From Eutreptiella sp. 'Long Island Sound 2002' (Eukaryota; Euglenozoa; Euglenophyceae; Eutreptiales; Eutreptiaceae), in NCBI GenBank assembly GCA_964036045.1, contig OZ038385.1:31834641-31898640 (forward strand): 64,000 nt of DNA. Reading direction: 5' to 3'. Positions 10,360 to 59,822 of this stretch are shown here, piece after piece. The notes below the pieces were generated by a model. That model searched no databases and had not been told where the DNA came from. It saw only the letters and a program-made list of their open reading frames with translations. Positions within the stretch are counted from its first letter, which is position 1. Each line of letters starts with the position of its first letter. A program made the position numbers and the translations under genes.

Positions 10360-12831
10360 TCAGAACTCGGCTGGACAGGTCACATCAAACCCCTTCTTGT
10401 GCAGTTTCCGCGCCATCCGCATAAAGCAGGAATATTTACGGGGGTCCGACTCGTCCCCATGTTCGTTAGCACGCTTCGCTCCTTGTTCTTGTTGAGCTTG
10501 CGTCTGGGAACGGGTCGTAGGCCCCGGATTCGGCCGCCCACCTGAGGGCTTGGAGTTCCCCCCTGGTGTAGGATTGGGGTTCCCTCCGGACTTGTCCGCG
10601 TTTTTGTCCTTGTCAGGCTTGCGGTCAGAGCCTCCTCGTCCACCTTTGCCCTTCTCTTGGCCTTTGCCACGGCCCTTGGACTTGCCCTTGCCACTGTCCT
10701 GGTCGGTGTTGCCCTTGCCACTGCCCTTGCCACTGCCGTTGTCGTTCTTGAGCTTCGCTGAGAGGCGTTGCTTGTGATAGCACTCGTCTTCGTAGTGCAT
10801 CCTCTTACCACAGAACGCACAGGTGATAGTGCACCTGTAGTGGTCCGGCACCGTGGCTTTGCCGCCGGTGTTGGTCTCCTTCTTCTTCCCTTGGAACACG
10901 AAACAATTCCACTGGTCGCAATCAGGGGCATGAAGCAGGCAATGCTGCTCATCTCTGGCATCACACCAGAAGAGCTCCTGGACATTGCTCATAATGCGAG
11001 CAATTTTGGGGGTACTCCCCTGTCCAGGTCGGGGTACTTGGTACCCCCGGCCATCGCTCCCAGAGCCGCCTCCTCCAGGGCGGTAGCTGTTCAGGTGCTT
11101 GTCACTTTCTTTCTCCAGCGCCAGCTCAGAAGGCAGCACAAACAAGTTTTCATAGGTGAGGGTTCTTGCCTTGCGCTCAGCCGTTGCCCGACATTCGTCC
11201 CACACGTCTCGTCGGATCTTGGCCACCAACCAAAATAGCAGCTCGTCGCTGCCATAAGAACCGGGCGTCAGTCGCCTTACCCAGTGGTCCAAGTCGGCCA
11301 GCAACTCAGAAATCCGGGCCGCCTTGGGGTTGTTGGGCAACAGAGCCAGGTTCTGGATCTCGGTCCGGATGGAGAGGTCGGTCTCATAGGAAGGGTACTG
11401 CCTCTCTAAGGCAACTAACACATCGGCAAAGGTAGCGGACTTCGTCACGATCCGCTTGACCTGCTTCTCCGGGTACTTGGTCTTGCAACACTGCAGGAGC
11501 AGATCGCACTTCAGACGACCACTCGCCTCGTTTTGGCCGGTCATCCTCAGGAACGGGCCAAAATTCTCAGCGAACTCGCTGAGGTCCTTCCCCGTGAACT
11601 GGGGCAAGTTCACCACAATCTTGGAGGTGGTGATGACCTTAGCCTCCTTGGACCTGCGTCTCTCTTGGCGCTTGGTCTTCCTCTTTTTCTTTTTCTTCTT
11701 GCCACTCGGGTTCCCGGGGTCCTCAGGGTCATCGTCCTGAGAGGGTGAAGCAGACGTCAGAGATGGCGGCTGATCATCAGAAGGATCACCGCCCAAGTCA
11801 CTGGAGCCATAGGACTCAACATCAACCATCGCCCTTAGGGCTGTCAGTCCCAATTGCTGGGCCTTGGCTCGGGTCGAGTTCTCCACATGGCTGTAGGGCG
11901 GCTGGACCGTTCTTGGTACAAAGGGACTCCTTGGTATTACAGCAAGGGTCGGCATAGGTCGGCTCCTCACGCCTCCCAGGGTGTGAGTCAGTCCTGCCAC
12001 CAGATGGTTGGCTTGTAGACGATGTGGTGAAGCTCCCATGGTGGTAGGTGACCCTTGGGGAGGAGTCAGGGGCTCCAGTTTGGCCGTCATTTCCTGAGTT
12101 AGATCACCCACTAGTTCTACAGTGGCTCCTGGAAGAGCTTCTCGTATCTTCAACCGCGTCAGGGACTTGTTTGAGGATCTTCCTGATCCCCTGCTTCTTC
12201 CCCCACAAGAGTCGGGGCCCCGTAGGCCACTCAGAGAGGTGAAGCCAGGTGCTAGCATGGTATAGCCAGTCTCGGGCGCTGCATAGCCATGCATACCTGT
12301 CATGTCCACACCCGTAGCGGGTCTGTGATAGTCCTCAGCGTAGCGATGCGGCATAGACTCACGGATACCGGTGTAGGTGGAGTTGGATGCCACTGGTTCG
12401 CTGATTGCAGTTGCCATTGGTGGCGCAGCCGCGAATGAGTCCACACCATAGGTGGGGTAAGGCACACCAGTAAAGCCTAGACCCTCAGCCATAGGTGGAG
12501 TGGTTGTGTGTGAAGATGTTGCTGGATGTGAGGCTGGGAGGTTGGTGGTAGTTGGAGAGGGTGTTGCACGGTGTTCAGAGGCGCTGGGTGCCCTCTCAGA
12601 AGGTTTCTCCTCGAAGGGTACCTCGTCAATTGGATCATGTCCAGGGTGTACTCCTTCGGCTCCAATCTCCACTGCTTTCTTCTCCTTCTCCTTCTCTTTG
12701 CCTTCAGATGGTCCGACGGATAGTCCGCTGAAGGCAGCTCCCAGTCCATCAAGGGAATCATCCATGCGTGCAATTAAGGACAATGAAGGTACAGGCTCCT
12801 CAGGTCCAGGTTCACCAGCAGGTTTGGGCAC
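10360..12831 (-). CDS. gag: Chromovirus Gag (intact 823-residue reading frame)
   Basis: The structural polyprotein of the Ty3/gypsy element. The first 370 residues are low-complexity (Pro/Ser/Thr-rich, with an early EKEKEKK run). At about 380-405 comes a Lys/Arg-rich block, then a capsid-like alpha-helical domain beginning KIVVNLPQFTGKDLSEFAEN. At about residues 667-683 there is a perfect CCHC zinc knuckle (CAFCGKRMHYEDEC, C-X2-C-X4-H-X4-C), followed by a Gly/Lys-rich basic tail. The frame has no stop although the downstream pol is broken many times. The Met start at 12831 is the first in frame and is also kept in the duplicate copy at 19189. It ends TGA, and protease sequence follows in the same frame. 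Confidence 0.85.
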   Translation of the reverse strand: MPKPAGEPGPEEPVPSLSLIARMDDSLDGLGAAFSGLSVGPSEGKEKEKEKKAVEIGAEGVHPGHDPIDEVPFEEKPSERAPSASEHRATPSPTTTNLPASHPATSSHTTTPPMAEGLGFTGVPYPTYGVDSFAAAPPMATAISEPVASNSTYTGIRESMPHRYAEDYHRPATGVDMTGMHGYAAPETGYTMLAPGFTSLSGLRGPDSCGGRSRGSGRSSNKSLTRLKIREALPGATVELVGDLTQEMTAKLEPLTPPQGSPTTMGASPHRLQANHLVAGLTHTLGGVRSRPMPTLAVIPRSPFVPRTVQPPYSHVENSTRAKAQQLGLTALRAMVDVESYGSSDLGGDPSDDQPPSLTSASPSQDDDPEDPGNPSGKKKKKKRKTKRQERRRSKEAKVITTSKIVVNLPQFTGKDLSEFAENFGPFLRMTGQNEASGRLKCDLLLQCCKTKYPEKQVKRIVTKSATFADVLVALERQYPSYETDLSIRTEIQNLALLPNNPKAARISELLADLDHWVRRLTPGSYGSDELLFWLVAKIRRDVWDECRATAERKARTLTYENLFVLPSELALEKESDKHLNSYRPGGGGSGSDGRGYQVPRPGQGSTPKIARIMSNVQELFWCDARDEQHCLLHAPDCDQWNCFVFQGKKKETNTGGKATVPDHYRCTITCAFCGKRMHYEDECYHKQRLSAKLKNDNGSGKGSGKGNTDQDSGKGKSKGRGKGQEKGKGGRGGSDRKPDKDKNADKSGGNPNPTPGGNSKPSGGRPNPGPTTRSQTQAQQEQGAKRANEHGDESDPRKYSCFMRMARKLHKKGFDVTCPAEF

Positions 12832-13394
12832 TAGCGCTGGCTTGGCTGGTGCCGTTCAGGGCGCTGTCTTCTCGGCAGTGTCCTTGGTGTCCATGTTGTA
12901 TTTCTTCGCCCTTCACGTACTGGTTGTACTACATGGGGCTGCAGGTACGCAAAGACTGAAAATCTCGGCTACCAGAAAATTAAAACAGGCTTCCACTGTT
13001 GATGTTTTTGATGATATTGTTTTTCTTTGTGCCTCCGCTTGCTCCTGCTGCTTCTTGATGCAGCTCAGGTCTTCCAAATATTAATGTTATGTTGAAATAA
13101 ACCAAAACTCCCAAGTATCCACAGTGCAAGAGAGAAAATACGGGATCAAATCCACAACATGAAGTTCTGCAGTCAAAGGGGATAGTGTATCAACAAACGA
13201 ACTCACAATAACTACAGAGTTAGGAAAAAATAGTTATGAAATATCCTACAATCATGGGAAAACTGCCCACAATTGCTTTCTCTCTTTTATAGTGCCGACT
13301 AGAGATGTGCACTCTTTGTTTTGGGTCCCTTAGGTGCTGAGGTGGCATGGTCTGTGGCGCTGAGGTCACTGCCATGTCCCATGGGATCTTCCTA

Positions 13395-13485
13395 CTTAGC
13401 TAGGCTGACTGGGAATTGAACCCAGGACCTCTCAAAAAGAGGTGCCCCAGCCCCCTAGGGTGCAGACCACTAGGATAGCTAAGCA
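13395..13485 (-). repeat. tRNA-like sequence (decayed tRNA or SINE)
   Basis: On the minus strand TAGCTATCCTAGTGGTCTG resembles a tRNA A box/D arm, and GGTCCTGGGTTCAATTCCC resembles a B box/T arm with a CTGGG/CCCAG stem. The acceptor stem does not close properly. A second copy lies at 19753-19843 because the whole region is duplicated. Confidence 0.35.
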
Positions 13486-13791
13486 TTCATGAGAAAACAT
13501 AGAAAAATGTATAGGCTCTGGATCAATGTAAGCGCCTCAGTCAGTCCAGAAAATGGTGCTTAAGTTCAATCAGTTGGGGGGGTCAGGGGTCCACACAACA
13601 TCCAAAGTTCAATGCTTGGCTTTATAGGTCCCAATGCTTTGTCACCCTCTTTGGGATAGGCAAGTACTAAGACAAAAATGTAGTATGCCTTTAGGCATCT
13701 CTGAAACAACTAACACGTACCTTTTGGCATGGAAATACACTTTTTCTTACTCATTGCATAGCTGGAAAAAGGCACTGTTGATCGGATTCTA

Positions 13792-13809
13792 TGCGCGAGG
13801 CCTCGCGCA
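13792..13809. repeat. 18-bp perfect palindrome, copy 1
   Basis: TGCGCGAGGCCTCGCGCA is its own reverse complement. Further exact copies lie at 13962-13979, 20150-20167, 20319-20336 and 20502-20519, and a degenerate one at 21314-21331. Confidence 0.9.
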
Positions 13810-13961
13810 ATCCAGACAGAAGAACATTGAAAAAGAAGCATGGCGGATTGAATTTCAGTGCAAAGCATATGCAATATGTGGTTCAAGGGACCCCTAGCAC
13901 CCCAGGTTGTTTTGCGGGGATGTACAGTGCAAAAAAAAACAGTGGTTCAAAGGGGGGCTCT

Positions 13962-13979
13962 TGCGCGAGGCCTCGCGCA
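13962..13979. repeat. 18-bp perfect palindrome, copy 2
   Basis: Same 18-mer as at 13792, 170 bp away and directly upstream of the element A insertion point. Confidence 0.9.
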
Positions 13980-13996
13980 TAACTGAATAAACCACA

Positions 13997-14012
13997 GGTA
14001 GGTAGGTAGGTA
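13997..14012 (-). repeat. Element A 3' tail, (TACC)4
   Basis: Four GGTA units on the plus strand, i.e. four TACC at the 3' end of the element. The next bases are TCTTCGGGAGCTC. Confidence 0.85.
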
Positions 14013-14097
14013 TCTTCGGGAGCTCGGGATGCCTCCTTTGACGGTGCAGGAAGAAGGTCTTACCAAGGGGACGTCCTGTCCCTCCCACTGCCCTATG

Positions 14098-14532
14098 TTA
14101 GGTGCCTCTTGAGCCGCTCCCGCATGTGCTTGGGAAGGCATTGTCGCGGCCACCCGGTCCATGTGTCCCAGGTGGGAGGGTGTCCCCACATGTGTCCTTG
14201 AGTAGGGCCACATGCCCCCTCCTTCGGGCGGCAGCTCTGGGGGCTGCCCAGCTGTGTGGAGTATCTCTCACCACAAGGGGTATTGCTCCCGCTTGTCTAC
14301 GGTACGACCGCCTCACCCTTGTGGCTTGAGTTGCGGGGCCGCTCCACTTGGCAGGCGACCCCCTCCTGGACTGTGTACCGGCTCGCCTGTCACCGGTTGC
14401 TTCCATGGCTCCGGGTGACGTTTGCCATGGTCCCCGATGCAGCCTGGCCGGGCTCGGACCAGCAGCCTTGGAGTACCGCTCCTGCCACTGGCCCGGTGGG
14501 TCGGCTGGGTCGCCCCAGTGTGTCCGACCCAT
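14098..14532 (-). CDS. 144-codon ORF in the conserved 3' region of element A
   Basis: A basic, Arg/Gly/Pro-rich frame in the sense direction of the element. The frame and length are the same in D (23607-24041) and B (58897-59331). No domain is recognised. The DNA is GC-rich and strongly conserved, so openness may reflect conserved DNA rather than protein selection; substitutions between copies often change residues. Confidence 0.3.
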   Translation of the reverse strand: MGRTHWGDPADPPGQWQERYSKAAGPSPARLHRGPWQTSPGAMEATGDRRAGTQSRRGSPAKWSGPATQATRVRRSYRRQAGAIPLVVRDTPHSWAAPRAAARRRGHVALLKDTCGDTLPPGTHGPGGRDNAFPSTCGSGSRGT

Positions 14533-14580
14533 GGGGTGTTGGTTCTTTCCTGTCCCCCGGCCGCCCTACGTGTGTGCGGT

Positions 14581-16400
14581 GTCCTGGGCCTCCCGGCTCC
14601 TGTTCACCGGTGTGCCCGCTCGCTGTGTTGTGTTGCGTGTGCGGTGTCCTGGGCCTCCTGGCTCCTGTTCTCCGGTGTGCCCGCTCGGTGTGTTGTGTTG
14701 CGTGTGCGGTGTCCTGGGCCTCCCGGCTCCTGTTCACCGGTGTGCCCGCTCGGTGTGTTGTGTTGCGCGTGCGGTGTCCTGGGCCTCCCGGCTCCTGTTC
14801 ACCGGTGTGCCCGCTCGGTGTGTTGTTTCGCGTGTGCGGTGTCCTGGGCCTCCCGGCTCCTGTTCACCGGTGTGCCTGTTCGGTGTGTTGCGTTGGGTGT
14901 GCGGTGTCCTGGGCCACCCGGCTCCTGTTCACCGGTGTGCCCGCTCGGTGTGTTGTGTTGGGTGTGCGGTGTCCTGGGCCTCCTGGCTCTTGTTCACCGG
15001 TGTGCCCGCTCGGTGTGTTGTGTTGCGTGTGCGGTGTCCTGGGCCCCCCGGCTCCTGTTCACCGGTGCGCCCGCTCGGTGTGTTGTGTTGCGTGTGCGGT
15101 GTCCTGGGCCTCCCGGCTCCTGTTCACCGGTGTGCCCGCTCGGTGTGTTGTGTTGCGTGTGCGGTGTCCTGGGCCTCCCGGCTCCTGTTCACCGGTGTGC
15201 CCGCTCGGTGTGTTGTGTTGCGCGTGCGGTGTCGTGGGCCTTCCGGCTCCTGTTCACCGTCGTGCCTGCTCGGTGTGTTGTTTCGCGTGTGCGGTGTCCT
15301 TGGCCTCCCAGCTCCTGTTCACCCGTGTGCCCGCTCGGTGTGTTGTGTTGCGTGTGCGGTGTCCTGGGCCTCCCGGCTCCTGTTCACTGGTGTGCCCGCT
15401 CGGTGTGTTGTGTTGCGTGTGCGGTGTCCTGGGCCTCCCGGCTCCTGTTCACCGGTGTGCCCGCTCGGTATGTTGTGTTGCGTGTGCGGTGTCCTGGGCC
15501 TCCTGGCTCCTGTTCACCGGTGTGCCCGCTCGGTGTGTTGTGTTGCGTGGGCGGTGTTCTGGGCCTCCCGGCTCCTGTTCACCCGTGTGCCCGCTCGGTG
15601 TGTTGTGTTGCGTGTGCGGTGTCCTGGGCCCCCCGGCTCCTGTTCACCGGTGCGCCCGCTCGGTGTGTTGTGTTGCGCGTGCGGTGTCCTGGGCCTCCCG
15701 GCTCCTGTTCACCGTCGTGCCCGCTCGGTGTGTTGTTTCGCGTGTGCGGTGTCCTGGGCCTCCCGGCTCCTGTTCACCGGTGTGCCTGCTCGGTGTGTTG
15801 CGTTGGGTGTGCGGTGTCCTGGGCCTCCCGGCTCCTGTTCACCGGTGCGCCCGCTCGGTGTGTTGTGTTGCGTGGGCGGTGTCCTGGGCCTCCCGGCTCC
15901 TGTTCACCGGTGTGCCCACTCGGTGTGTTGTGTTGCGTGTGCGGTGTCCTGGGCCTCCCGGCTCCTGTTCACCGGTGTGCCCGCTCGGTGTGTTGTGTTG
16001 CGTGTGCGGTGTCCTGGGCCCCCCGGCTCCTGTTCACCGGTGTGCCCGCTCGGTGTGTTGTGTGGCGTGTTCGGTGTCCTGGGCCTCCCGGCTCCTGTTC
16101 ACCGGTGTGCCCGCTCGGTGTGTTGTGTGGCGTGTGCGGTGTCCTGGGCCTCCCGGCTCCTGTTCACCGGTGTGCCCGCTCGGTGTGTTGTGTTGCGTGT
16201 GCGGTGTCCTGGGCCCCCCGGCTCCTGTTCAGCGGTGCGCCCGCTCGGTGTGTTGTGTGGCGTGTGCGGTGTCCTGGGCCTTCCGGCTCCTGTTCACCGG
16301 TGCGCCCGCTTGGTGTGTTGTGTTGTGTGTGCGGTGTCCTGGGCCTCCCGGCTCCTGTTCACCGGTGCGCCCGCTCGGTGTGTTGTGTTGCTGTGCGGGG
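14581..16400 (+). repeat. 65-bp tandem array of element A, 28 units
   Basis: Unit starts GTCCTGGGCCTCCCGGCTCC and recurs at 14581, 14646, 14711 and so on to 16336. That is 28 units with no net length change. Differences between units are substitutions only. Because 65 is not a multiple of 3 and the plus strand of the unit lacks stops, all three plus frames stay open for about 720 codons. These are not genes. Confidence 0.95.
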
Positions 16401-16632
16401 CGTCGCTGCGGGGCGCTCACTCGTCCATCCGGACGGCGGCTATCGTAGCCGGCAGGGGCTGGGTACCCTCCGGGCGCACACACGTCCATCCGGACGGCGG
16501 CTGTTCGTAGCCGGCAGGGGCTGGGTACCCTCCGGGCGCGCACTCGTCCATCCGGACGGCGGCTGTTCGTAGCCGGTAGGGGCTGGGTACCCTCGGGGCG
16601 CGCACTCGTCCATCCGGACGGCGGCTGGCGTG
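16401..16632 (+). repeat. 62-bp tandem repeat of element A, four copies
   Basis: The core GTCCATCCGGACGGCGGCT occurs at 16423, 16484, 16546 and 16608 (spacing 61, 62, 62), followed in each unit by GTAGCCGGCAGGGGCTGGGT. The same module is present in B, and as a 64-bp version in D. Confidence 0.9.
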
Positions 16633-18350
16633 CGTGTGCTTGCTCTTTGTGGCCGGGCGCGTTGTGGTGCGTCTCACCTTTTCCTTTGGCCCCCTTGTCT
16701 TTCTGCTTTGCTTGGCCCCCCCCGGGCTGGGGTTACCCCCCTCTCTCTTGCTGCCCTTGCCGTTCCTCGTTGCCTTGGCGCTGTGCTTTGGTTGTTTTTC
16801 TAGGCCTCCCGCTGCCTGGCTCTTCGTGCGCTCGGGCCTCGTTTGTGTCTCCCTCTTGGCCGTTGGTTGCTCTTTGGTGGTTTCTCCCCCCCCCCCTTCC
16901 CTTTTTGTGTCTCGCAGTTTTCGTCGCTCCTGCTTGGTGCCTTGGTGTTTTTTTTTTTTTTTTCCTTTTCTTCCCCTTCTTCCCCCTTTGCGCCCCCGTT
17001 GTCTCTGGCTTTCTCTGGTTTCCGGCCCCGATGCCCTTGGCCTCGGCGCTTTGCGTTGTTTGCTTTGTTGGCCTTCCGCCTCTCGGCTCTCCGTGCGCTT
17101 GTCCCTCTTTCGTGCTTTCCGCCTGGCTGGTGGTTGCTCCCCGGTGGTTGCTGCCCCCCCCCCCCTTTTTGTCTCGCGGTTTTCGTGGCTGCCGCTCGGT
17201 GCTGTGTGCCGTGTGCTGTGTTGTGCTGTGCCTCCCTGGGTGCGGTGCTGCGCCGCGCTGTGTCCTCCGATGTTGTGCTGTCCTGTGCTGTGTTGTGCTC
17301 GTCGGGTGCCGCTGCTTGTTGCGCCGTGCCCTCTGGTGCTGCCCGTTGCCCTGGGGCCCTGTGCTCTGCGGCGCTGTGTTTTGCGGTGTTCCCCCGTGCT
17401 GCGTGTGTTTTGTCGTGGCGCGGTGGTGCGTGCTGTTGTTCGCTGCTCTGCTTTGTGCTGTGTGTGTCCCGGGGTGCTGTGCTGTGCGTTCCCTGTCCTC
17501 TCCGGTCTGTGCGGTGCTGTGCTTCGCTGTGCTGGTGGCTCGCGTTGTGCTGTTCGTGTGGTGCGTGCTGTTGCTGGCGCCTGGTGCTGTGGTGTGCCGT
17601 GGTGCGGTGCTGGATCTGGTGGCCCGTGGTTTTCTGCTGGTGGCGTGTTTCGGTGTCGGTGTCCCTGTCCGGCCGCGTGGTCTGTTTCCCTTGTGGTTGG
17701 TGTGGTTTGCTGTGGTGCCCTGCTTTCCTGTGTCGTGTTCTGTGGTGCTGTGCTGTTGCGTGGTGCTGTGCTGTTGTGCTCTGCTGTCGTGTTGCGCTGC
17801 TGTTGGGGCTTCCTTTGCGCTCCTGTGGGCTGTCGTGCTGTGCTGTGTTGTGCTGTTGGTTGGCTGTGCTGTTTTTTGCCCGGTGGTGGTGTCTGCGTGC
17901 TGTGGTGCTCTTTTCCTCGTGCTGTGCGTTCCCTGTCTTCTCCGTTCTGTGCGCTGCGGTGCCTTGTTGTGCTGGCTGTGGTGCCCTGCTTCCCTGTGTC
18001 GTGTGCTGTGGCGCTGTGCTGTCGTGTGGTGCTGTGCTGTCGTGCTCTGCTGTCCTTTTGCGGTGCTGTTTGTGTGGGCTGTGGGCTGTGGGCTGTCGTG
18101 CTGCGCTGTGTTGTGCTGTTGGTTGGCTGTGCTGTTTTTTGCCCGGTGGTGGTGTCTGACTGCTGTGGTGCTCTTTTCCTCGTGCTGTGCGTTCCCTGTC
18201 TTCTCCGCTCTGTGCGCTGCGGTGCCCTGCTTCCCTGTGCTGTGCCCCGTGGTGCTGTGCTGCCGCCTGGTGCCGTGGTGTCCTGTCCTGCCGCCTTGCT
18301 GGGTGTGTTTCTTGCGTGGGTGTGGTTGTACCTACTTGAAAAACCGCTGC
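16633..18350. repeat. Low-complexity CTG/GTG-like region of element A
   Basis: GC-rich, purine-poor on plus, full of TGCTGTG/GCGGTGC-like words and T or C homopolymers. Long open frames (over 400 codons) on plus come from this composition. Its counterpart in element B is 54.65-56.4 kb. Confidence 0.7.
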
Positions 18351-18472
18351 AAAATTTCGTAAAATATTTTTTTCCTCTTTTTTTTTTTGGATTTTGAAAA
18401 TAAAATAAAATTATACACGACCCAACACACTCGCGTGCAGCAAGACCATCTTTCGCTGCTGTGCCTTACGTG

Positions 18473-18541
18473 CTACCCGTCGTTCTTGATGTTCTCGGCC
18501 TTGTTCTTGTGCGTGGCGTCGTGGAGCGTGTTGGTGTCCAT
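18473..18541 (-). CDS. 22-codon ORF in the 5' module of element A
   Basis: Starts MDTNTLHDATHKNKAEN and ends in TAG. The 69 bases are identical to 54438-54506 in element B. It is followed by an AT-rich stretch like a polyadenylation region. It could be the captured 3' end of a host exon. No family recognised. Confidence 0.3.
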   Translation of the reverse strand: MDTNTLHDATHKNKAENIKNDG

Positions 18542-18591
18542 TGCTAAGGGTTAAGCGCGTTCCCCCAGGGCCGCCGCCTGAGCTGAGAGCT

Positions 18592-19189
18592 GAGAGGTGA
18601 AGCCAGGTGCTAGCATGGTATAGCCAGTCTTGGGCGCTGCATAGCCATGCATACCTGTCATGTCCACACCCGTAGCGGGTCTGTGATAGTCCTCAGCGTA
18701 GCGATGCGGCATAGACTCACGGATACCGGTGTAGGTGGAGTTGGATGCCACTGGTTCGCTGATTGCAGTTGCCATTGGTGGCGCAGCCGCGAATGAGTCC
18801 ACACCATAGGTGGGGTAAGGCACACCAGTAAAGCCTAGACCCTCAGCCATAGGTGGAGTGGTTGTGTGTGAATATGTTGCTGGATGTGAGGCTGGGAGGT
18901 TGGTGGTAGTTGGAGAGGGTGTTGCACGGTGTTCAGAGGCGCTGGGTGCCCTCTCAGAAGGTTTCTCCTCCAAGGGTACCTCGTCAATTGGATCATGTCC
19001 AGGGTGTACTCCTTCGGCTCCAATCTCCACTGCTTTCTTCTCCTTCTCCTTCTCTTTGCCTTCAGATGGTCCGACGGATAGTCCGCTGAAGGCAGCTCCC
19101 AGTCCATCAAGGGAATCATCCATGCGTGCAATTAAGGACAATGAAGGTACAGGCTCCTCAGGTCCAGGTTCACCAGCAGGTTTGGGCAC
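18592..19189 (-). pseudogene. Duplicated N-terminal part of chromovirus gag
   Basis: About 199 codons of gag identical in frame and start to 12831-12234 apart from a few substitutions. It then runs into element A sequence, giving a chimeric frame that ends near 18551. It has no capsid or zinc knuckle. Confidence 0.85.
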
Positions 19190-19752
19190 TAGCGCTGGCT
19201 TGGCTGGTGCCGTTCAGGGCGCTGTCTTCTCGGCAGTGTCCTTGGTGTCCATGTTGTATTTCTTCGCCCTTCACGTACTGGTTGTACTACATGGGGCTGC
19301 AGGTACGCAAAGACTGAAAATCTCGGCTACCAGAAAATTAAAACAGGCTTCCACTGTTGATGGTTTTGATGATATTGTTTTTCTTTGTGCCTCCGCTTGC
19401 TCCTGCTGCTTCTTGATGCAGCTCAGGTCTTCCAAATATTAATGTTATGTTGAAATAAACCAAAACTCCCAAGTATCCACAGTGCAAGGGGGAAAATACG
19501 GGATCAAATCCACAACATGAAGGGCTGCAGTCAAAGGAGATAGTGTATCAACAAACGAACTCACAATACCTACAGAGTTAGGAAAAGATAGTTATGAAAT
19601 ATCCTACAATCATGGGAAAACTGCCCACAATTGCTTTCTCTCTTTTATAGTGCCGACTAGAGATGTGCACTCTTTGTTTTGGGTCCCTTAGGTGCTGAGG
19701 TTGCATGGTCTGTGGCGCTGAGGTCACTGCCATGTCCCATGGGATCTTCCTA

Positions 19753-19843
19753 CTTAGCTAGGCTGACTGGGAATTGAACCCAGGACCTCTCAAAAAGAGG
19801 TGCCCCAGCCCCCTAGGGTGCAGACCACTAGGATAGCTAAGCA
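19753..19843 (-). repeat. Second copy of the tRNA-like sequence
   Basis: Duplicate of 13395-13485, with the same A-box-like and B-box-like stretches. Confidence 0.35.
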
Positions 19844-50621: not shown

Positions 50622-52026
50622 TCACTTGGGGCCCTTCCGTGCCCTCTTGCCTGTGTGCTCCTTGGTGCCCCTTGCCCTTCCCTTGCCCTTGTCCTGCCCC
50701 TTCCTGGTGTGGTGGTGGCGGGAGGGGCGGGGTGGGGAGGGGGCGCCGGTGGCCCAGGCTTGGGGGTGGGTGGCCTGGAGCCACTGGCGGAGGGCTTGGG
50801 GGGTGTAGGGGGGGCGGAGGCCCTGGACCGCATCGCGGAGGAGGGCCTCCCATGCCGCTTGCGGCATGATGGCCTCCGGGGCGGCCTCGTTGGGGTTTGC
50901 GGGGGTGCGGGTGCGCACCTCCTCGAAGGTATGCACCATGTGCACCCCTTCGTGCCTTCCCGCTCCCCCGGCCCATTTCACCCAGCGGCGGAGCTCCTGC
51001 AGAGCGGGGGGAGACCACCAGGCGAGGTAGGCGGGGGCCCGGGGGGGGGGAGGGGTCCGTGCCCGGGGTCCTGGAGCGGCGGGGGGAAGACGTGGACCTG
51101 CGGTGGTGGCGGGGGTGGCGGTGCCTGGGGGAGCGGGAGCGGCGGCGGCGGGGGGTGGGGGTGGAGGACGGGTACGGGCGGAGGGGGGAGCAAGAGGGGG
51201 AGGTGGACATGGGGCGGTGGTGGCGCGCTCGGTGGCGTCCGGGGGAGCGGGAGTGGTGGTGGCGGGGGCTGGGGGTGGTGGATGGGTACGGGTGGCGGGG
51301 GGAACGGGGAGCCCGGCGGGGCGTGTGGGGGGAGAGGGAGGTGGACGTGGGGCGGCAGTGGCGTGCCTGGCTGCGTCGGGGGGAGCGGGAGTGGTGGTGG
51401 CGGGGGCTGGGTGGCCGGTGGGGGGAGGGGGAGGGGGACATGGGGCGGCGGTGGCGCTCGTGGTGGTGCCCGGGGGAGCGGGAGCGACGGGAGCGGGGTC
51501 CCTGGGGGTCGTGGTGGTACCTCGGGGAGCGGGAGCGGCGCGAGTGGGTGGTTGAGGCGCGGTGGGAGTGTGGGCGCCGTGGGCGAGTGTGCCGTGCGGG
51601 GGGGGGGAGCGGGAGCGCCGCCGTTTGCGGGACCGGCCCCCGTCGCTCGAGTCGGGCCAGTCCGGAAGCGTCGGCGGCCCCTGGGGGGCCTCGCGCGGTG
51701 CCGCTGGGGGGGGGAGGTCCCCCGTCGTCCATGGGGCCCCTTCGGCCATCGGATGGTGGCCGGGGGGGTACGGGGCCTCGCGCGGTGCCGCCAGGGGGGG
51801 GAGGTCCCCCGTCGTCCATGGGGCCCCTTCGGCCATCGGATGGTGGCCGCGGGGGTACGGGTGGTACGGGGGTGGTGGCTGGTACGGGGGGGGTGGCTCC
51901 TGGCGGTAGGTGGGGTATGCGGGTGGGGCGCTCGGTGGCTGCCATCCCGTCCGCTGGTGCTGTTCGTGTACGGGGGGTTGTGGCCCGGTGGGGTAGGGCG
52001 GTGGGCAGTGGTAGTGGTGGGGGTGG
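50622..52026 (-). CDS. Proline-rich ORF of element E, related to ORF3 of element D
   Basis: An open frame of about 468 codons inside the element; it also continues 26 codons into the flanking repeat. The first in-frame Met inside E is at about 51836. Near the N-terminus a 29-residue unit (with HHPMAEGAPWTTGDLPP) is repeated, encoded by an 87-bp DNA duplication at about 51690-51850. The middle is Pro/Ala/Thr-rich and comes from irregular GGGGGAGCGGGAG repeats. The C-terminus has AWWSPPALQELRRWVKWAGG and MPQAAWEALLRDAVQGL, the same domain as the end of D's ORF3, then a Lys/Arg-rich tail. An alternative frame here is RSRSP-rich, so the frame choice rests on the C-terminal similarity. Role unknown. 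Confidence 0.5.
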
Positions 52027-53092
52027 TATTTACTCGTTGGTTTGTGGGCTCTTTGTATTTTGCGACGCCCAAGAGTAGGCGTGTTTGCGTAATGCATTCG
52101 TGACACATGCTACTTTTTTTTTCTGTCATGGACTCTTTGTTTTTGGCGACGCCCAAGAGTAAGCGTGTCTTAATGCATGCATGGCGGCATATACTATTTA
52201 CTCGTTGGTTTGTGGACTCTTTGTATTTTGCAACGCCCAAGAGTAGGCGTGTTTGCTTAATGCATTCATGACATGCTACTTATTCTTTATGTCACGGACT
52301 CTTTGTTCTTAGCGACGCCCAAGAGTAAGCTTGTCTTAATGCATTCATGACACATGCCATTCATTCTTTGTGTCGTGGACTCGTTGTTTTTGGGCGACGC
52401 CCAAGAGGAAGCGTGTGGTGCCTTCCCTTCCCCTTGTGCGCACTTTTTGTGTTGTTGGGGCGTGCACTCAAGCCCTAGTTCCCTAATTGCGGGCACTTTG
52501 CTATTGTGTTGCAGCGAGCACACAAGCTGGCTCACTCATTTTCTCCCTTTGTTCCTGTCGTGTTGCTGTGTGCAGTGCACTTTTTGCCAACCTCGCCAAA
52601 CAGTGGCGCAAAAATCGTGGGGGGGTTTCTGAGGTCGGAAAAACCGTTTTTTCTATTCTTTTTGTTGTTTTCTGCGTCGTTTTCCTTTTTTTTGTCAGAT
52701 TTGAAGTTCAAATTGAGGTGACATATGGGTTTGGTAAGATCCCATAATGGTAGGCCATAACCCAAACTCCTCAAATATGAGGAATCGACACTGATGAGAG
52801 ACTATGGGTAAAGTATTGGCCCAAAGCGAAAGATGGCCTAACCTTCCCATGGCCCAGAAGTGAACTCATGAAATTTGGAATTTTCAACAAAATTCCAGGA
52901 AAAATTAAAAACAGTGGACTTGCGTACCAGTAACCTTCCAACAAATGCTCGATACAAAGTAGAGAGCACCATTGAAACATAGGGAAAGACCCCAAGGGAC
53001 CATGTAAAACCACTATCCTATACACTTGGCAGACTTGGTTCCAATGGATAGTGTAAGTAATAGAACATACCAAAACAAGTTCAAATGCCCAA
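52027..53092. repeat. Right copy of the long duplication flanking element E
   Basis: 1066 bp. It starts at the 5' end of E inside an 84-bp-type repeat and ends at GCCCAA, where the uninterrupted AT-rich repeat continues (GGTAGAACCATTGGGG). It includes about 4.5 monomers of the 84-bp array. Confidence 0.75.
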
Positions 53093-53966
53093 GGTAGAAC
53101 CATTGGGGAGGTCTAGGGTCAAAGAACATGGAGATTTGGCCCAAAGAACCAAATGAACCAAGTGAATGAAGTGAACAAACAAAATTTGACATCTCCAAAA
53201 GGTTTTAGAGATTGCAATGCTGTGGTAAGCCCAAAGTGAGTTACAACCAAGTAAAAGCATGCACGTAGAGTGGAAAGTATGCTCTTTCATTGGAATCATC
53301 ACCTGGCTTCGAACTCAACATGTACATGAAGATATGAATTCAAAAGTCAACACATGGACTGAGTAAATTTGGGCAATGTGCTCATGATCAAATTTACTAT
53401 AAGCAGAAATAGGCCAAAATGGCACATAGAAAATTAGTCGTAGCGTAAAGACAAAAATGGGCCACAACCTATGGTGACCATATATGGATAGTAGGGAACA
53501 TGGACACCAGGAATGATCAAACAATTGACAAAAACTCAATGATAGTGGATCTCCATTGTCACCACAAGTGAACACATGAAAAATATATAATTCAAGACAC
53601 AATCACTAAAATTCATGCGTGGCCCTATGTACAATGAATCAGGGCCATAGAAAGTGCATTAACAAATGTAGACACATGCCACACCACGCACAAACAAACA
53701 TTAGACTGGAATCCGACGCGAGTTTGGAGATCCAAGCTCGAAAAGTAGGCCCATGACAGGCCAAAAATGAGTGATTTTTGGCATAAAATGACTATGCCAA
53801 AACGAGCTCAAAAAAGTTGAAAACTACGAGCTAAAAGATGTTGAAAGCGTCGAAACGCAACCAAAACTCGAACATATATTGTTTGTACTCACCAAGTACG
53901 AACAAAATGAGCTCTTACTTATTTTCCGTCGCACCATATCTTGGAGATATAGTGGCGAACTTTGAG
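53093..53966. repeat. AT-rich repeat, remainder, including the left copy of the duplication flanking element B
   Basis: Continuation of the AT-rich target repeat. Bases 53577-53966 (390 bp, TGAAAAATA to CTTTGAG) are repeated at 59433-59822, also 390 bp, with 11 substitutions counted by eye. Position 53637 is where D inserted in the other copy. No gene. Confidence 0.75.
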
Positions 53967-54390
53967 GGCATGTGGTGCGGAATGAGTGTCGCGCGCGCTG
54001 GGGCCCTGTCCCAGAACGAAATAAAAAGATAGGTAAAATACGACGAAAAAATTTTCTGAATAGCTGAAAATAAAGCTAATTAGCATAAAAAACGCTTAGG
54101 CCAAAAAGCGCGCTGCGAAACGCGTAAAAACGCGACGAAAACTTTTTCGACGTCAAATAGGTGAATAGTTAACGCCGTAAGCACCGTAACGCTCGTAGGA
54201 CCCCAACGCCGTCCTTGCCGTCGTCTAACTCGCTATAGGTGCAAAGAAAAACGCGTCGCGAGCAGCGCGTAAAACTCGAAAAAAAAATTTCATAACTCGC
54301 CACGACCCCTCATGTCGCGCCCTGCCGCCTTTTTCTTCTTCTTCTCCATGCACCTCCCTCCCCACCCTCGTGCCCATCACTCCCCTTGCC
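53967..54390 (+). other. AT-rich 5' stretch of element B ending in a splice-acceptor-like sequence
   Basis: AT-rich with ACGCG-type words, then a pyrimidine-rich tract (CTTTTTCTTCTTCTTCTCC and C-rich continuation) ending TGCAG at about 54391-54395. Element A's homology begins within a few bases of this point. No ORF. Confidence 0.4.
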
Positions 54391-54437
54391 CTGCAGCTCA
54401 GGCGGCGGCCCTGGGGGAATGCGGTTAACCCTTAGCA

Positions 54438-54506
54438 ATGGACACCAACACGCTCCACGACGCCACGCACAAGAACAAGGCCGAGAACATCAAGAACGAC
54501 GGGTAG
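54438..54506 (+). CDS. 22-codon ORF in the 5' module of element B
   Basis: Base-for-base identical to 18473-18541 of element A. Followed by AT-rich DNA (TATAATTTTATTTT) and A runs. Confidence 0.3.
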   Translation: MDTNTLHDATHKNKAENIKNDG

Positions 54507-54649
54507 CACGTAAGGCACAGCAGCGAACATGGTCTTGCTGCACGCGAGTGTGTTGGGTCGTGTATAATTTTATTTTTTTTATCAAAAGCCAAAAAAAAGA
54601 GGGAAAAAAAAATAAAGTTTTCAAAGGCACGGAAAAACGGCAGGGATTT

Positions 54650-56400
54650 TTAGCAAAGGAAAAGAGGACAAAAGGAAAAACAAACACCAGCAGCGCAGAC
54701 ATCCGCACAGCACAGCCAACCAGCACAGCACCGCAGGGCAGCACGGCACCGCAGGACACGGCACAGGGCGCAGGACACCACAGGACAACGCACAGCACAG
54801 CAAGACACCACGACACACCAGAGCAGCACCACCACACCGCAGAACGCCCAGGGAGACACCACAACGCACAGGGACACGCCACAGCACGAGGCACCAACAA
54901 CAGCGCAGACGACACTGGCGCCGCACGACAGGCCGCAGGAGGGCAAAGCAAACACAAACAGCACCGCAAAACGACAGCAGAGCACGACAGCACAGCACCA
55001 CACGACCGCACAGTGCCACAGCACACGACACAGGGAAGCAGTGCACCACAGCCAGCACAACAAGGCACCGCAGCGCACAGAGCGGAGAAGACAGGGAACG
55101 CACAGCACGAGGAAAAGAGCACCACAGCACGCGGACACCACCACCGGGCAAAAAACAGCACAGGCAACCAACAGCACAACACAGCACAGCACGACAGCCC
55201 ACAGGAGGGCAGAGCAAGCCCCAACAGCACCGCAACACGGCAGCAGAGCACAACAGCACAACACCACGCGACAGCACAGCACCACAGAACACGACACAGG
55301 AAAGCAGGGCACCACAACAAACCACACCAACCACAGGGAAACAGACCACGCGGCCAGACAGGGACGCCGACACCGAAACACGCCACCAGCAGACAACCAC
55401 AGGCCACCAGACCCAGCACCGCACCACGGCACACCACAGCACCAGGCGCCAGCAACAGCACGCACGGCACGAACACCACAACGCGAGCGCACCAGCACAG
55501 CGAAGCACAGCACCGCACAGAGCGGAGAGGACAGGGAACGCACAGCACAGCACCCCGGGACACACACAGCACAAAGCAAAGCGGCGAACAACAGCACGCA
55601 CCACCGCGCCACACAGCACGGGGGAACACCACAAAACACAGCGCCGCAGAGCACAGGGCCCCAGGGCAACGGGCAGCGCAAGAGGGCACGGCGCAACGAG
55701 CAGCGGCACCCAACGAGCACAACACAGCACAGGACAGCACAACACCGGAGGACACAACGCGCAGCAGCGCGGCGCAGCACCGCAGCCAGGGACGCACAGC
55801 ACAACACAGCACACGGCACACAGCACCGAGCGGCAGCGACGAAAACCGCGAGACGTAAAGGGGGGGGGGGGCAGCAACCACCGGGGAGCAACCACCAACC
55901 AGGCGGAAAGCACGAAAGAGGGACAAGCGCACGGGGAGCCGAGAGGCGGAAGGCCAACAAAGCAAACAACGCACAGCGCCGAGGCCAAGGGCACCCGGGG
56001 CCGGAAACCAGAGAAAGCCGGAGACAACGGGGGCGCAGATGGGGACAAGGGGGAGAAAAAAAAAAAAAAAAACACCAAGGAACCAAGCAGGATCGACGAA
56101 AAGCGCGAGACACAAAAAGGGAGGGGGGAGGGGGAGAAACCACCAAAGGAAAGCCAACGGCCAAGCGGGAGACACAAACGAGGCGCGAGCGCACAGGGAG
56201 CCAGGCAGCCGGAGGCCGAGAAAAACAACCAAAGCACAGCGCCAAGGCAACGAGGAACGGCAAGGGCAGCGAGAGAGAGGGGGGCAACCCCAGCCCGGAG
56301 GGGGCCAAGCAAAGCAGAAAGACAAGGCGGCCAAAGGAAAAGGTGAGGCGCACCACAACGCGCCCGCGAGGCCGGCCCGCCCGACCCGGCCACAAAGAGC
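54650..56400. repeat. Low-complexity CAGCAC-like region of element B
   Basis: Plus strand is rich in CAGCACAGCAC, ACGACAG and purine runs. It mirrors 16.63-18.35 kb of A. Open frames of over 400 codons on both strands are compositional. Confidence 0.7.
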
Positions 56401-56404
56401 AAGC

Positions 56405-56640
56405 ACACGCACGCCAGCCGCCGTCCGGATGGACGAGTGCGCGCCCGGAGGGTACCCAGCCCCTGCCGGCTACGAACAGCCGCCGTCCGGATGGACGAGT
56501 GCGCGCCCGGAGGGTACCCAGCCCCTGCCGGCTACGAACAGCCGCCGTCCGGATGGACGTGTGTGCGCCGGAGGGTACCCAGCCCCTGCCGGCTACGATA
56601 GCCGCCGTCCGGATGGACGAGTGAGCGCCCCGCAGCGACG
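56405..56640 (-). repeat. 62-bp tandem repeat of element B
   Basis: Four units with GCCGCCGTCCGGATGGAC cores on plus, the reverse complement of the element A repeat. Confidence 0.88.
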
Positions 56641-58848
56641 CCCCGCACAGCAACACAACACACCGAGCGGGCACACCGGTGAACAGGAGCCGGGAGGCCC
56701 AGGACACCGCACACGCAAGACAACACACCGAGCGGGCACACCGGTGAACAGGAGCCAGGAGGCCCAGGACACCACACGCAACACAACACACCGAGCGGGC
56801 GCTCCGGTGAACAAGAGCCGGGAGGCCTAGGACACTGCACACGCAACACAACACACCGAGCGGGCACACCGGTGAACAGGAGCCGGGAGGCCCAGGACAC
56901 CGCACACGCAACACAACACACCGAGCGGGCACACCGGTGAACAGGAGCCGGGAGGCCCAGGACACCACACACGCAACACAACACACCGAGCAGGCACACC
57001 GGAGAACAGGAGCCGGGAGGCCCAGGACACCGCACACGCAACACAACACAGCGAGCGGGCGCACTGGTGAACAGGAGCCGGGAGGCCCAGGACACGGCAC
57101 ACGCAACACAACACACCGAGCGGGCACACCGGTGAACAGGAGCCGGGATGCCCAGGACACCGTACACACAACACAACACACCGAGAGGGCGCACCGGTGA
57201 ACAGGAGCCGGGAGGCCCAGGACACCGCACACGCAACACAACACACCGAGCAGGCACACCGGTGAACAGGAGCCGGGAGGCCCAGGACACCGCACACGCG
57301 AAACAACACACCGAGCGGGCACACCGGTGAACAGGAGCCGGGAGGCCCAGGACACCGCACACGCAACACAACACATCGAGCGGGCACACCGGTGAACAGG
57401 AGCCGGGAGGACCAGGACACCGCACACGCAACACAACACACCGAGCGGGCACACCGGTGAACAGGAGCCGGGAGGCCCTGGACACCGCACACGCAACACA
57501 ACACACCGAGCGGATGCACCGGTGAACAGGAGCCGGGAGGCCCAGGACACCGCACACGCAACACAACACACCGAGCGGGCACACCGGTGAACAGGAGCCA
57601 GGTGGCCCAAGACACCGCACACGCAACACAACACACCGAGCGGGCACACAGGTGAACAGGAGCCGGAAGGCCCAAGACACCGCACGCGCAACACAACACA
57701 CCGAGCGGGCACACCGGTGAACAGGAGCGCGGAGGCCTACGACACCGCACACGCAACACAACACACCGAGCGGGCACACCGGAGAACAGGAGCCGGGAAG
57801 CCATGGACACCGCACACCCAACACAACACACCGAGCGGGCACACCGGTGAACAGGAGCCAGTTGGTCCAGGACACCGCCCACACAAAACAACACACCGAG
57901 CGGGCACACCGGTGAACAGGCGCCAGAAGGCCCAGGACACCGCACACGCAACACAACACACCGAGCAGGCACACCGGTGAACAGGAGCCGGGAGGCCCAG
58001 GACACCGCACACGCAACACAACACACCGAGCAGGCACACCGGAGAACAGGAGGCAGGTGGCCCAGGACGCCGCACACGCGAAACAACACACCGAGCGGGC
58101 ACACCGGGGAACAGGAGCCACGAGGCCCAGGACACCGCACACCCAACACAACACACCGAGCGGGCACACCGGAGAACAGGAGCAAGGAGGCCCAGGACAT
58201 CGCGCACACAACACAACACAGCGAGCGGGCACACCGGTGAACAGGAGCCGGGAGGCCCAGGACATCGCACACACAACGCAACACACCGAGCAGGCACAGC
58301 GGTGAACAGGAGCCGGGAGGCCCAGGACACCGCACACGCAACACAACACACCGAGCTGGCACACCGGTGAACAGGAGCCGGGAGGCCCAGGACACCGCAC
58401 ACGCAACACAACACACCGAGCGGGCACACCGGTGAACAGGAGCCGGGAGGCCCAGGACGCCGCACACCCAACACAACACGCCGAGCGGGCACACCGGTGA
58501 ACAGGAGCCGGGAGGCCCAGGACACCGCACACGCAACACAACACACCGAGGGGGCACACCGGTGAACAGGAGCCGGGAGGCCCAGGACACCGCACACGCA
58601 AGACAACACACCGAGCGAGCGCACCGGTGAACAGGAGCCGGCAGGCCCAGGACACCGCACGCGCAACACAACACACCGAGCGGGCACGACGGTGAACAGG
58701 AACCGGGAGGCCCAGGACACCGCACACGCAACACAACACACCGAGCGGGCACACCGGTGAACAGGAGCCGGGAGGCCCAGGACAGCGCACACCCAACACA
58801 ACACACCGAGCGCGCACACCGGTGAACAGGAGCCGGGAGGCCCAGGAC
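56641..58848 (-). repeat. 65-bp tandem array of element B, 34 units
   Basis: Units start (minus strand) at 58848, 58783 and onward to 56705. 33 units of 65 bp plus one of 63 bp (two bases lost near 56773) give exactly 2208 bp. All three minus frames stay open for up to 830 codons; these are not genes. Confidence 0.95.
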
Positions 58849-58896
58849 ACCGCACACACGTAGGGCGGCCGGGGGACAGGAAAGAACCAACACCCC

Positions 58897-59331
58897 ATGG
58901 GTCGGACACACTGGGGCGACCCAGACGACCCACCGGGCCAGTGGCAGGAGCGGTACTCCAAGGCTGCTGGTCCGAGCCCGGCCAGGCTGCATCGAGGACC
59001 ATGGCAAACGTCACCCGGAGCCATGGATGCGACCGGTGACAGGCGAGCCGGTACACAGTCCAGGAGGGGGTCGCCTGCCAGGCAGAGTGGCCCCGCAACT
59101 CAAGCCACAAGGGTGAGGCGGTCGTACCGTAGACAAGCGGGAGCAATACCCCTTGTGGTGAGAGATACTCCACACGGCTGGGTAGCCCCCAGAGCTGCCG
59201 CCCGAAGGAGGGGGCATGTGGCCCTACTCATGGACACATGTGGGGACACCCTCCCACCTGGGACACATGGACCGGGTGGCCGCGACAATGCCTTCCCAAG
59301 CACATGCGGGAGCGGCTCAAGAGGCACCTAA
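58897..59331 (+). CDS. 144-codon ORF in the 3' region of element B
   Basis: Third copy of the ORF at 14098-14532 and 23607-24041, sense to the element. Basic, Arg/Gly/Ser-rich, no known domain. Confidence 0.3.
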   Translation: MGRTHWGDPDDPPGQWQERYSKAAGPSPARLHRGPWQTSPGAMDATGDRRAGTQSRRGSPARQSGPATQATRVRRSYRRQAGAIPLVVRDTPHGWVAPRAAARRRGHVALLMDTCGDTLPPGTHGPGGRDNAFPSTCGSGSRGT

Positions 59332-59416
59332 CATAGGGCAGTGGGAGGGACAGGACGTCCCCATGGTAAGACCTTCTTCCTGCACCGTCAAAGCAGGCAT
59401 CCCGAGCTCCCGAAGA

Positions 59417-59432
59417 TACCTACCTACCTACC
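59417..59432 (+). repeat. Element B 3' tail, (TACC)4
   Basis: Four TACC units preceded by CCGAAGA as in element A, and directly followed by the flanking duplication (TGAAAAATA). Confidence 0.88.
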
Positions 59433-59822
59433 TGAAAAATATAAAATTCAAGACACAATCACTAAAATTCATGTGTGGCCCTATGTACAATGAATCAGGG
59501 CCAAAGAAAGTACATTAACAAAAGTAGACACATGCCACACCACGCACAAACAAACATTAGACTGGAATCTGACGCGAGTTTGGAGATCCGAGCTCGAAAA
59601 ATAGGCCCATGACAGGCCAAAAATGAGTGATTTTTGGCATAAAATGACTATGCCAAAACGAGCTCAAAAAAGTTTAAAACTTCGAGCTAAAAGATGTTGA
59701 AAGCGTCGAAACGCAACCAAAACTCGAACATATATTGTTTGTACTCACCAAGTACAAACAAAATGAGCTCTTACTTATTTTCCGTCGCACCATATCTTGG
59801 AGATATAGTGGCGAACTTTGAG
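59433..59822. repeat. Right copy of the 390-bp duplication flanking element B
   Basis: Same length as 53577-53966. After 59822 the target continues CACATGAAAACAAAG, whereas the left copy runs into the element. Confidence 0.78.

Follow-up and report, generated by a model that had tools for sequence, protein, structure and literature searches.

Long copies of a LINE family that ends in a (TACC)n tail are often, but not always, flanked by kilobase duplications of their target. Four such insertions lie in the window, the 64,000-nucleotide stretch of Eutreptiella sp. 'Long Island Sound 2002' DNA that was analysed here, and they have been confirmed as real: each of the elements A, D, E, and B has a 5' junction at one end and an exact (TACC)4 tail at the other, and lies between two copies of its target. 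The completion of the second half of LINE insertion is a long-standing gap (PMC6895275 and PMC2881922, in the parts available), and the pattern described below suggests that this half of the reaction works differently in the family.

A sequence-only reading of the window had placed the four (TACC)4 tails, had given the lengths of the duplications, and had one target copy adjoin the tail and the other the 5' end of each element. All four tails are found at the positions it claimed (8 overlapping matches to a (TACC)3 pattern at 4 places in the window, 0 in 100 shuffles), alignment agrees with the arrangement for A, D, E, and B, and its lengths are within 0-3 bp of the alignment-based values (1763/1762 bp for A, 947/944 bp for D, 1068/1069 bp for E, 390/389 bp for B). 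Element A (minus strand, 13997-18591, 4595 bp) has its tail at 13997-14012; the duplication on the tail side, at 12234-13996, is 98.6% identical to the copy on the 5'-end side, at 18592-20353. Element D (minus strand, 23506-47306, tail at 23506-23521) adjoins its tail-side copy, D-left, at 22559-23505; its right copy begins at 47307, is interrupted by E, and ends at 53637, so that a first part before E (47307-47706) has 95.1% identity to D-left and the 944 bp after E (52694-53637) have 93.1%. Element E, which represents a second sub-family (minus strand, 47707-52023, 4317 bp, tail at 47707-47722), lies between a tail-side copy at 46639-47706, which includes the 5' end of D, and a 5'-end copy at 52024-53092 with 99.1% identity. 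(The E copies are possibly 3 bp shorter, given a mismatch close to their edge, and the 5 bases beyond the duplication, GGTAG, are shared with the E tail.) Element B (plus strand, 53967-59432/3, about 5.47 kb, tail at 59417-59432) has its 5'-end copy at 53577-53966 and its tail-side copy at 59433/4-59822, with 97.2% identity between them. When the window was compared with itself, and matches internal to tandem arrays as well as matches of less than 300 bp touching arrays were dropped, 26 rows were left: 6 correspond to the duplications, whole or in part, 19 lie among or inside the elements, and 1 is a 32-bp match.

The length of D, 23.8 kb, reflects the fact that it is a coding LINE. D encodes both an APE-type endonuclease (minus strand, 34037-35068; PF03372, E 1.2e-6) and a reverse transcriptase, RVT_1 (minus strand, 32773-33852; PF00078, E 9.6e-9), and the family is therefore assigned to the LINEs. 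The D copy is decayed: its APE frame differs from its RT frame, and alignment shows that the box of the catalytic Asp pair is altered. Among the best 50 hits of the D RT, relatives have 66-91% identity over the matched part, and a reverse transcriptase domain (PF00078) is present in D and in relatives alike. In the relative P0197, PF03372 precedes RVT_1 in one protein, although RVT_1 falls below the curated cut-off there; the APE domain is thus N-terminal to RT in a single protein, an order that is frame-disrupted in D. When a profile of the RT alignment was compared with the PDB, the LINE-1 ORF2 protein was among the nearest solved RTs. The 3' end is fixed as (TACC)n, mostly n=4, in each copy, while the copies start at varied D or A/B positions. 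T is the first base after the tail in 27 of 27 cases (20 sampled loci, L005, L008, L079, and the four window elements), and this constant T together with 5' truncation are the only signatures of target-primed reverse transcription. The duplication of about 5-20 bp associated with APE LINEs is seen in some short copies and not overall; it is not treated here as defining for APE LINEs.

We infer that the A/B and E types may use the machinery of D-like elements via the (TACC)n 3' end that they have in common. A 3'-end motif common to A/B/D and E is weak at best (p 0.05 for A, 0.21 for B, and 0.03 for D, each versus E, using mononucleotide shuffles), and a local search with a gapped 3'-end pattern gave no match. 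Viral contigs searched with the RT, the RT alignment, and the 3'-end pattern yielded no family relative, nor did a set of genome contigs that possibly lacks the source genome. A Pfam scan found no family in two long antisense ORFs of element A, and neither RT nor APE in three sense and two antisense ORFs of element B. Element A is T-poor (4.1% T on the sense strand), carries 65-bp and 62-bp tandem repeats, and lacks about 428 bp of the 5' part of B; most of that part (from position 43) is found again in another copy. Element E contains a fragment of a PPi-phosphofructokinase gene. Among selected ORFs, the Pfam scan also detected Gypsy-type pieces in the left flank of the window and, below the curated cut-off, matches to KdpC, TrAA12, YhfH, Deltameth_res, and DUF6114. 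Searches for spliced-leader and telomere motifs gave no more than weak hits resembling the Euglena leader.

Several observations support the conclusion that the duplications arose at insertion. D-left is related to the sites into which E and B inserted but is itself uninterrupted, and within a triplicated stretch of 405 bp, 20 of 20 variable positions place the duplication of E after the divergence of D's copies. That tandem or assembly duplications already existed and were entered by the elements by chance is scarcely credible. Long, similar copies are what a false duplication would also show, and direct support beyond this was not found; against it, the repeat edges coincide with both element ends in 4 of 4 window cases, the window copies differ by 0.9-6.9%, the three-way sites (20/20) put D before E, and the pattern is seen again at unrelated genome loci. 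The tie between duplication and insertion proposed in the sequence-only reading extends beyond the window, the long form (at least 300 bp) being found again at 6 of 19 placed genome loci. An LTR retrotransposon, with the duplications as its LTRs, was considered and rejected, since the flanking repeats are target sequence and are not homologous among elements: the repeats of A share nothing with those of D, E, and B, and the latter overlap only because these insertions hit one neighbourhood.

Within the genome of 2.28 Gb, (TACC)4 has 5121 + 5339 overlapping matches, versus 1438 + 1578 for the reversed pattern. Further loci, 23 in number and all on contig C1, were drawn from plain (TACC)4 places. 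From about 100 matches listed, all on this contig, 10 '+' and 10 '-' loci were picked from the beginning; places with at least three overlapping matches were skipped, and a two-match '+' place, 6768213, was left out. To these 20 were added L005 and L008, which are 3-kb loci at skipped multi-match places, and L079, a '+' place further along, ahead of which the two-match place 17247991 was left out. The 5' end could not be placed at four of the 23 loci (L008, L012, L016, which is in satellite, and L018, which is apparently interrupted); 13 gave a measured duplication and at six none was found. The 5' end of L010 was placed by base composition only, and at L013, L015, L022, and L023 the upstream copy was read only where it touches the element (to the edge of the piece), its start being assumed. 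At L017 the 300-bp stretch that follows the tail is found again 18.86 kb upstream at 100% identity, the other 38 among the matches listed being at 99%.

At the measured loci, the duplication tends to lengthen with the insert. Inserts of 30, 176, 197, 732, and 1473 bp have duplications of 13, 15, 13, 18, and 31 bp, respectively; an insert of 2619 bp has 132 bp; and inserts of 7913, 8096, 8555, 9504, and 17317 bp have 762, 1054, 1166, 1342, and 1543 bp. The exceptions are L025 (11275 bp, with a duplication of 42 bp), the E-type insert at L005 (327 bp, with 512 bp), L014 (4.4 kb), where no duplication was found, and L079 (about 6.0 kb), where none was found in a search to 2664 bp past the tail. 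No duplication was found at L010, L024, L027, and L028 either, and these six of the 19 placed loci could be deletions, or could have very short or decayed duplications. Duplications of at least 300 bp (six of 19 placed loci, 512-1543 bp) occur in five of eight copies of at least 4 kb versus one of 11 shorter copies (Fisher p 0.04, for few loci on one contig and with the 4-kb divide set after inspection of the data). With the window's four, which were picked by the reader rather than sampled, the counts are nine of 12, with duplications of 390-1763 bp, versus one of 11 (p 0.003). In the other 10 copies below 4 kb, the duplication is 13-31 bp in five and 132 bp in one, and in four none was found. 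The Spearman correlation between insert and duplication length is 0.88 for 12 loci without L005 and 0.83 for all 13; over the 19 placed loci together, those where none was found being counted as 0, it is 0.58 (p 0.009), or 0.61 with the window's four. Throughout the length-trend statistics E was given the value 1073 bp, with its tail overlap counted in. Kilobase duplications thus recur, but they track insert length and are not universal. The earlier claim that the family makes them as a rule is not supported, as 13 of 19 placed copies have less than 300 bp or none found. That most copies would be of this kind had been named beforehand as counting against the pattern itself; 10 of these 13 are shorter than 4 kb, and the long form is present in five of eight at 4 kb or above.

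These results can be accommodated, with moderate probability, by a single LINE machinery in which the site of the second-strand step would not be fixed near the nick but would drift as the cDNA grows. The endonuclease would nick the antisense strand and leave a primer with a terminal A, and the (TACC)n tail would be copied first, by target-primed reverse transcription. Unlike in L1, the second-strand step would not be fixed some 15 bp away; as the cDNA grows, the site at which its tip is joined to the target would move away from the nick. This could happen in two ways: unwinding of the target might continue up to the point at which the other strand is cut, or a longer cDNA tether might let the tip reach, and jump onto, more distant target DNA. 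Short cDNAs that ended early would then tend to give duplications of 13-31 bp, as against 0.4-1.8 kb from multi-kilobase cDNAs. The narrower proposal that cDNA length itself sets the duplication, a free tip tethered at the nick being captured by target DNA at a distance that rises with length, is put forward only tentatively. As for the distant nicks or repair-coupled copying suggested in the sequence-only reading, the duplications do fit a second-strand break or a template jump distant from the first nick, though not as a family rule.

Two other accounts of the duplications were considered. It is possible, though rather unlikely, that an ordinary APE LINE operates in a host whose repair (the XPF/NER flap pathway, for example) misplaces the second nick, so that a chance distant nick is used. 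Such a nick has already been proposed for NER-deficient human cells in the parts available of PMC5223499, where duplications of at least 200 bp are given for 23 of 29 insertions in XPD-, 21 of 26 in XPC-, and 3 of 8 listed in XPA-deficient cells; for complemented cells the figure is 2 of 17. The four window lengths fall inside the spread of those long ones (KS p 0.79, at the low power of n=4 vs 47). Both sub-families, with A/B/D and E ends, show long duplications, as a host cause would give. A host defect alone, however, does not predict the rise with insert length, and the five short copies with 13-31 bp in the same genome indicate that nearby second cleavage does work there. Alternatively, all inserts might gain long duplications, and recombination between the two copies might then delete the elements again, more often when they are short, so that the length trend is what is left. 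The copies at L013, L015, L017, L022, and L023 are direct repeats of 98-99.5% identity that could recombine, and L005 demonstrates that long duplications are possible at short inserts. Yet long duplications are absent from 10 of 10 short copies besides L005, so that near-complete loss would be needed, even though L019, L021, L026, and L028 are still 96-98% identical to the A/B 3' end; this account is considered improbable.

If cDNA length does set the duplication, each long insertion, by duplicating host DNA, would be a segmental duplication event, and host recombination between the kilobase direct repeats could excise the LINE precisely, much as happens with LTR elements. Were the tip captured on the opposite side of the nick, the target would suffer a deletion, perhaps seen as the copies without a duplication. 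A natural family whose duplications run from 13 bp to 1.8 kb and tend to follow insert length may offer a genomic record of second-strand timing, with potentially thousands of copies available.

Among known systems, R9 of bdelloid rotifers is presumably of the RLE type with a fixed duplication length. An R9-like LINE, with one rDNA site and a fixed-length duplication, was rejected for the present family, whose targets and lengths vary; a scan of the window against Rfam gave no match at gathering scores. R9 resembles this family in having an exceptionally long duplication as a family trait, and its 126 bp is the longest family-specific value found (PMC6895275, parts available), but it is rDNA-specific and its duplication is about ten-fold shorter. 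Human LINE-1 in normal cells likewise has an APE and an RT, undergoes 5' truncation, and bears the insertion marks of target-primed reverse transcription; its tail, however, is poly(A) rather than (TACC)n, and its duplications are 10-20 bp, in full-length copies too (all but two of 66 in a set cited in PMC4245944, parts available), with a median of 13 bp in the portion available of PMC12016303, whose count was limited to 5-25 bp. In human L1, as here, the length of the duplication varies with insert structure, very short duplications being enriched in truncated copies, but the shift is between less than 10 bp and about 15 bp, not to kilobases (PMC2912911 and PMC4245944, parts available). The earlier view that nothing known behaves in this way stands insofar as no natural LINE family with routine kilobase duplications was found in the open-access literature, among the matches listed, but it needs to be limited in view of human L1 in XPD-, XPC-, and XPA-deficient cells, in which many inserts have duplications of 0.2-6.8 kb and for which the authors discuss strand displacement as far as a distant second nick (PMC5223499, parts available). 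Both are APE LINEs with long duplications; in the human case this is a mutant-cell phenotype, insert size is no different by NER status, and the available parts of that paper claim no trend in duplication length. The family described here connects that mutant-cell phenotype to a natural setting.

Four LINE-type elements in the window end in an exact (TACC)4 tail: A (13997-18591), D (23506-47306) and E (47707-52023) on the minus strand, and B (53967-59432) on the plus strand. Alignment shows that the same target stretch flanks both outer ends of each element, over 1763/1762 bp for A (98.6% identity), 947/944 bp for D (93.1%), 1068/1069 bp for E (99.1%) and 390/389 bp for B (97.2%). The four related insertions with long duplications proposed by the sequence-only reading are real, and their geometry is seen at A, D, E and B alike. 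Self-comparison of the whole window, with matches inside tandem arrays and matches of <300 bp touching arrays dropped, yields 26 rows, of which 6 come from these duplications and 19 are matches among elements or inside them; the remaining row is a 32-bp match, an identical stretch at 21346-21377 and 61147-61178, 40 kb apart in non-element DNA. The palindromic GCGAGGCCTCGC occurs five times in or beside A's target copies (13795, 13965, 20153, 20322 and 20505). The window also holds Gypsy-like LTR retrotransposon fragments (1878-2630, plus strand; 7254-7997 and 9733-10359, minus strand; RNase H, aspartyl protease, integrase just under cut-off), and the targets of two (TACC)n loci elsewhere in the genome, L014 and L025, seem by eye to be similar to Gypsy-like integrase sequence.

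The duplicated flanks might instead be assembly duplications, or tandem copies older than the insertions, but such a reading is hard to reconcile with the nested history of D and E and with their divergences. E is inserted close to the 5' end of D, in the right-hand copy of D's duplication, and its own duplication consequently comprises the terminal 668 bp at D's 5' end and 400 bp of D's target. Because E duplicated part of this target copy, a 405-bp stretch of it (including a 5-bp tail overlap) now has three copies, one on the left of D and one on each side of E. Both E-flanking copies agree against the copy left of D at 20 of 20 variable sites, with zero conflicting sites, and the copy left of D is uninterrupted across the E and B insertion points, so that the undisturbed form of both target sites is visible. 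The order of events is therefore D first, E later; the divergence between duplication copies, 6.9% for D and 0.9% for E, agrees with this order. The E insertion partly re-duplicated an 84-bp tandem repeat that lies close to the 5' end of D (46325-47030 and 52045-52416).

The sense strand of D (23.8 kb) has an APE-type endonuclease (PF03372; 34037-35068, minus strand) and a reverse transcriptase (RT; PF00078) in different frames; this copy is altered in the RT box where the catalytic Asp pair lies. Two protein searches gave 268 and 177 matches, and all those listed (120 each) come from ENA contigs. In one relative, P0197, the APE domain is followed by the RT domain within one protein, with an RT match under the curated cut-off. 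Against PDB, the RT alignment profile has five matches (E 1.3e-13 to 8.3e-13), of which LINE-1 ORF2 protein accounts for four; the APE profile reaches an L1-endonuclease-like entry at E 0.1 only. APE/L1 endonucleases have SDH at a motif where the D-related family (P0121-P0235) differs: among the 61 proteins with a readable pattern (235 scanned, RT-only proteins included), 49 have TGH, and Asp occupies the middle position in one. A (4.6 kb) and B (5.5 kb) match each other at 90-94% over 4 kb, and have in common with D the 3' 1.2 kb (86-87%) and tandem repeats; since RT and APE were not found in seven of their longer ORFs, A and B look non-autonomous. The 5' part of B (428 bp, 53967-54394) is absent from A and is T-richer; from its position 43 on it recurs at 85% in the 5' part of another copy (L079/L086), and so belongs to the family. 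All four elements are very T-poor on the sense strand (A 4.1%, B 5.3%, E 8.2%, D 9.7%), and tandem arrays of 65 bp and of 62 to 64 bp are present in A, B and D. A separate sub-family is represented by E (4.3 kb), which holds a broken PPi-dependent phosphofructokinase gene fragment, two frame-shifted pieces at 49398-50079 (minus strand, in sense with E) that match PDB 1kzh at E 6e-13 and 7e-4; this fragment is presumably of host origin, carried by a LINE-type element.

The window occupies 31834641-31898640 of contig C8 in a 2.28-Gb assembly whose content is eukaryotic. Across this assembly, (TACC)4 has 5121 + 5339 matches versus 1438 + 1578 for a reversed-pattern control, overlapping matches being scored separately. 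The sample (n = 23) consists of 20 places from the start of the (TACC)4 listing, on contig C1 (201 Mb), plus L005, L008 and L079. By sequence, 22 of the 23 loci match a window element; the remaining one, L011, is a stub of 30 bp in which the 9 bases directly ahead of the tail agree with the family. T follows the tail in 23/23 sampled loci and 4/4 window elements, and this T is also present in the upstream copy at the nine loci where that copy was read from the beginning (L005, L009, L011, L017, L019, L020, L021, L025 and L026). Four tail units are found in all four window elements and in 17 of the 20 sampled loci, a sample that skipped places with >=6 units, and five units in three; among E-type copies, L005 has 6 units and L008 has 10.

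Long duplications are not peculiar to the window, nor are they the rule for every copy. Duplications of 13 bp (L011, 30-bp insert; L021, 197), 15 bp (L019, 176), 18 bp (L026, 732), 31 bp (L020, 1473) and 132 bp (L009, 2619) were measured, as were 512 bp at L005 (327; 98.2% identity), 762 bp at L022 (7913; 98.6%), 1054 bp at L023 (8096; 99.1%), 1166 bp at L015 (8555; 98.0%), 1342 bp at L013 (9504; 99.5%), 42 bp at L025 (11275) and 1543 bp at L017 (17317; 99.2%). At L013, L015, L022 and L023 the upstream copy was read only where it touches the element, and overlap between target and element makes edges uncertain by up to ~10 bp. At L017, the first 300 bp are found again by genome search, at 100% identity, 18.86 kb upstream, which is precisely the distance that the measured length demands; this target is a repeat, with 38 other matches at 99% among the matches listed. 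A duplication was not found at L010 (~1.1 kb), L014 (4.4 kb), L024 (2.7 kb), L027 (0.2 kb, an old copy), L028 (0.2 kb) or L079 (~6.0 kb; search to 2664 bp). Placement failed for L008, L012, L016 and L018, which were left out of the 19-locus statistics; the long copy at L016/L031 lies inside a satellite array, where ~3-kb alignments at 85-87% in several registers make the duplication length unmeasurable.

Long duplications go with long inserts. Divided at 4 kb, 5/8 longer copies have a long duplication versus 1/11 shorter ones (p 0.04), or 9/12 versus 1/11 with the window's four (p 0.003); the divide was picked after the data were seen and the window's four were picked by the sequence-only reading, so these p values are descriptive. 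The rank correlation between insert and duplication length, with 'none found' entered as zero, is 0.58 (n = 19), or 0.61 with the window's four (n = 23). The 11 shorter copies comprise five with 13-31 bp, one with 132, one with 512 and four with none found. Exceptions run both ways: L025, L014 and L079 are long without a long duplication, and L005 is short with one. Long duplications, which the sequence-only reading called routine, are better described as common in long copies; they recur outside the window, with short ones or none found at other loci.

Beyond what is seen directly (the duplication geometry, its recurrence and the length trend), a first nick would leave a primer ending in A, copying would start from the (UACC)n tail, and the second-strand step would occur at a distance that grows during cDNA synthesis. 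Either target unwinding might proceed until a distant cut, or the cDNA tip might jump onto target DNA as far off as its tether allows. The main rival is that host repair causes the long duplications. According to PMC5223499, many L1 inserts in human cells without XPD, XPC or XPA have 0.2-6.8 kb duplications, and its authors consider strand displacement as far as a distant nick. The window's lengths lie within that range; by itself, however, host repair does not explain why short copies in this genome have short duplications.

APE LINEs tend to have 10-20 bp duplications, as stated in PMC6895275, where the 126 bp of R9 is termed quite distant. A natural LINE family with routine kilobase duplications was not found among the open-access literature matches listed. 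In a set of 66 full-length human L1 copies described in PMC4245944, only two fall outside 10-20 bp, and truncated copies lean to still shorter duplications according to PMC2912911, so that human L1 offers a faint parallel to the direction of the length effect, though not to its size. The duplications described here are a real, recurrent and new variant of the outcome of LINE insertion.
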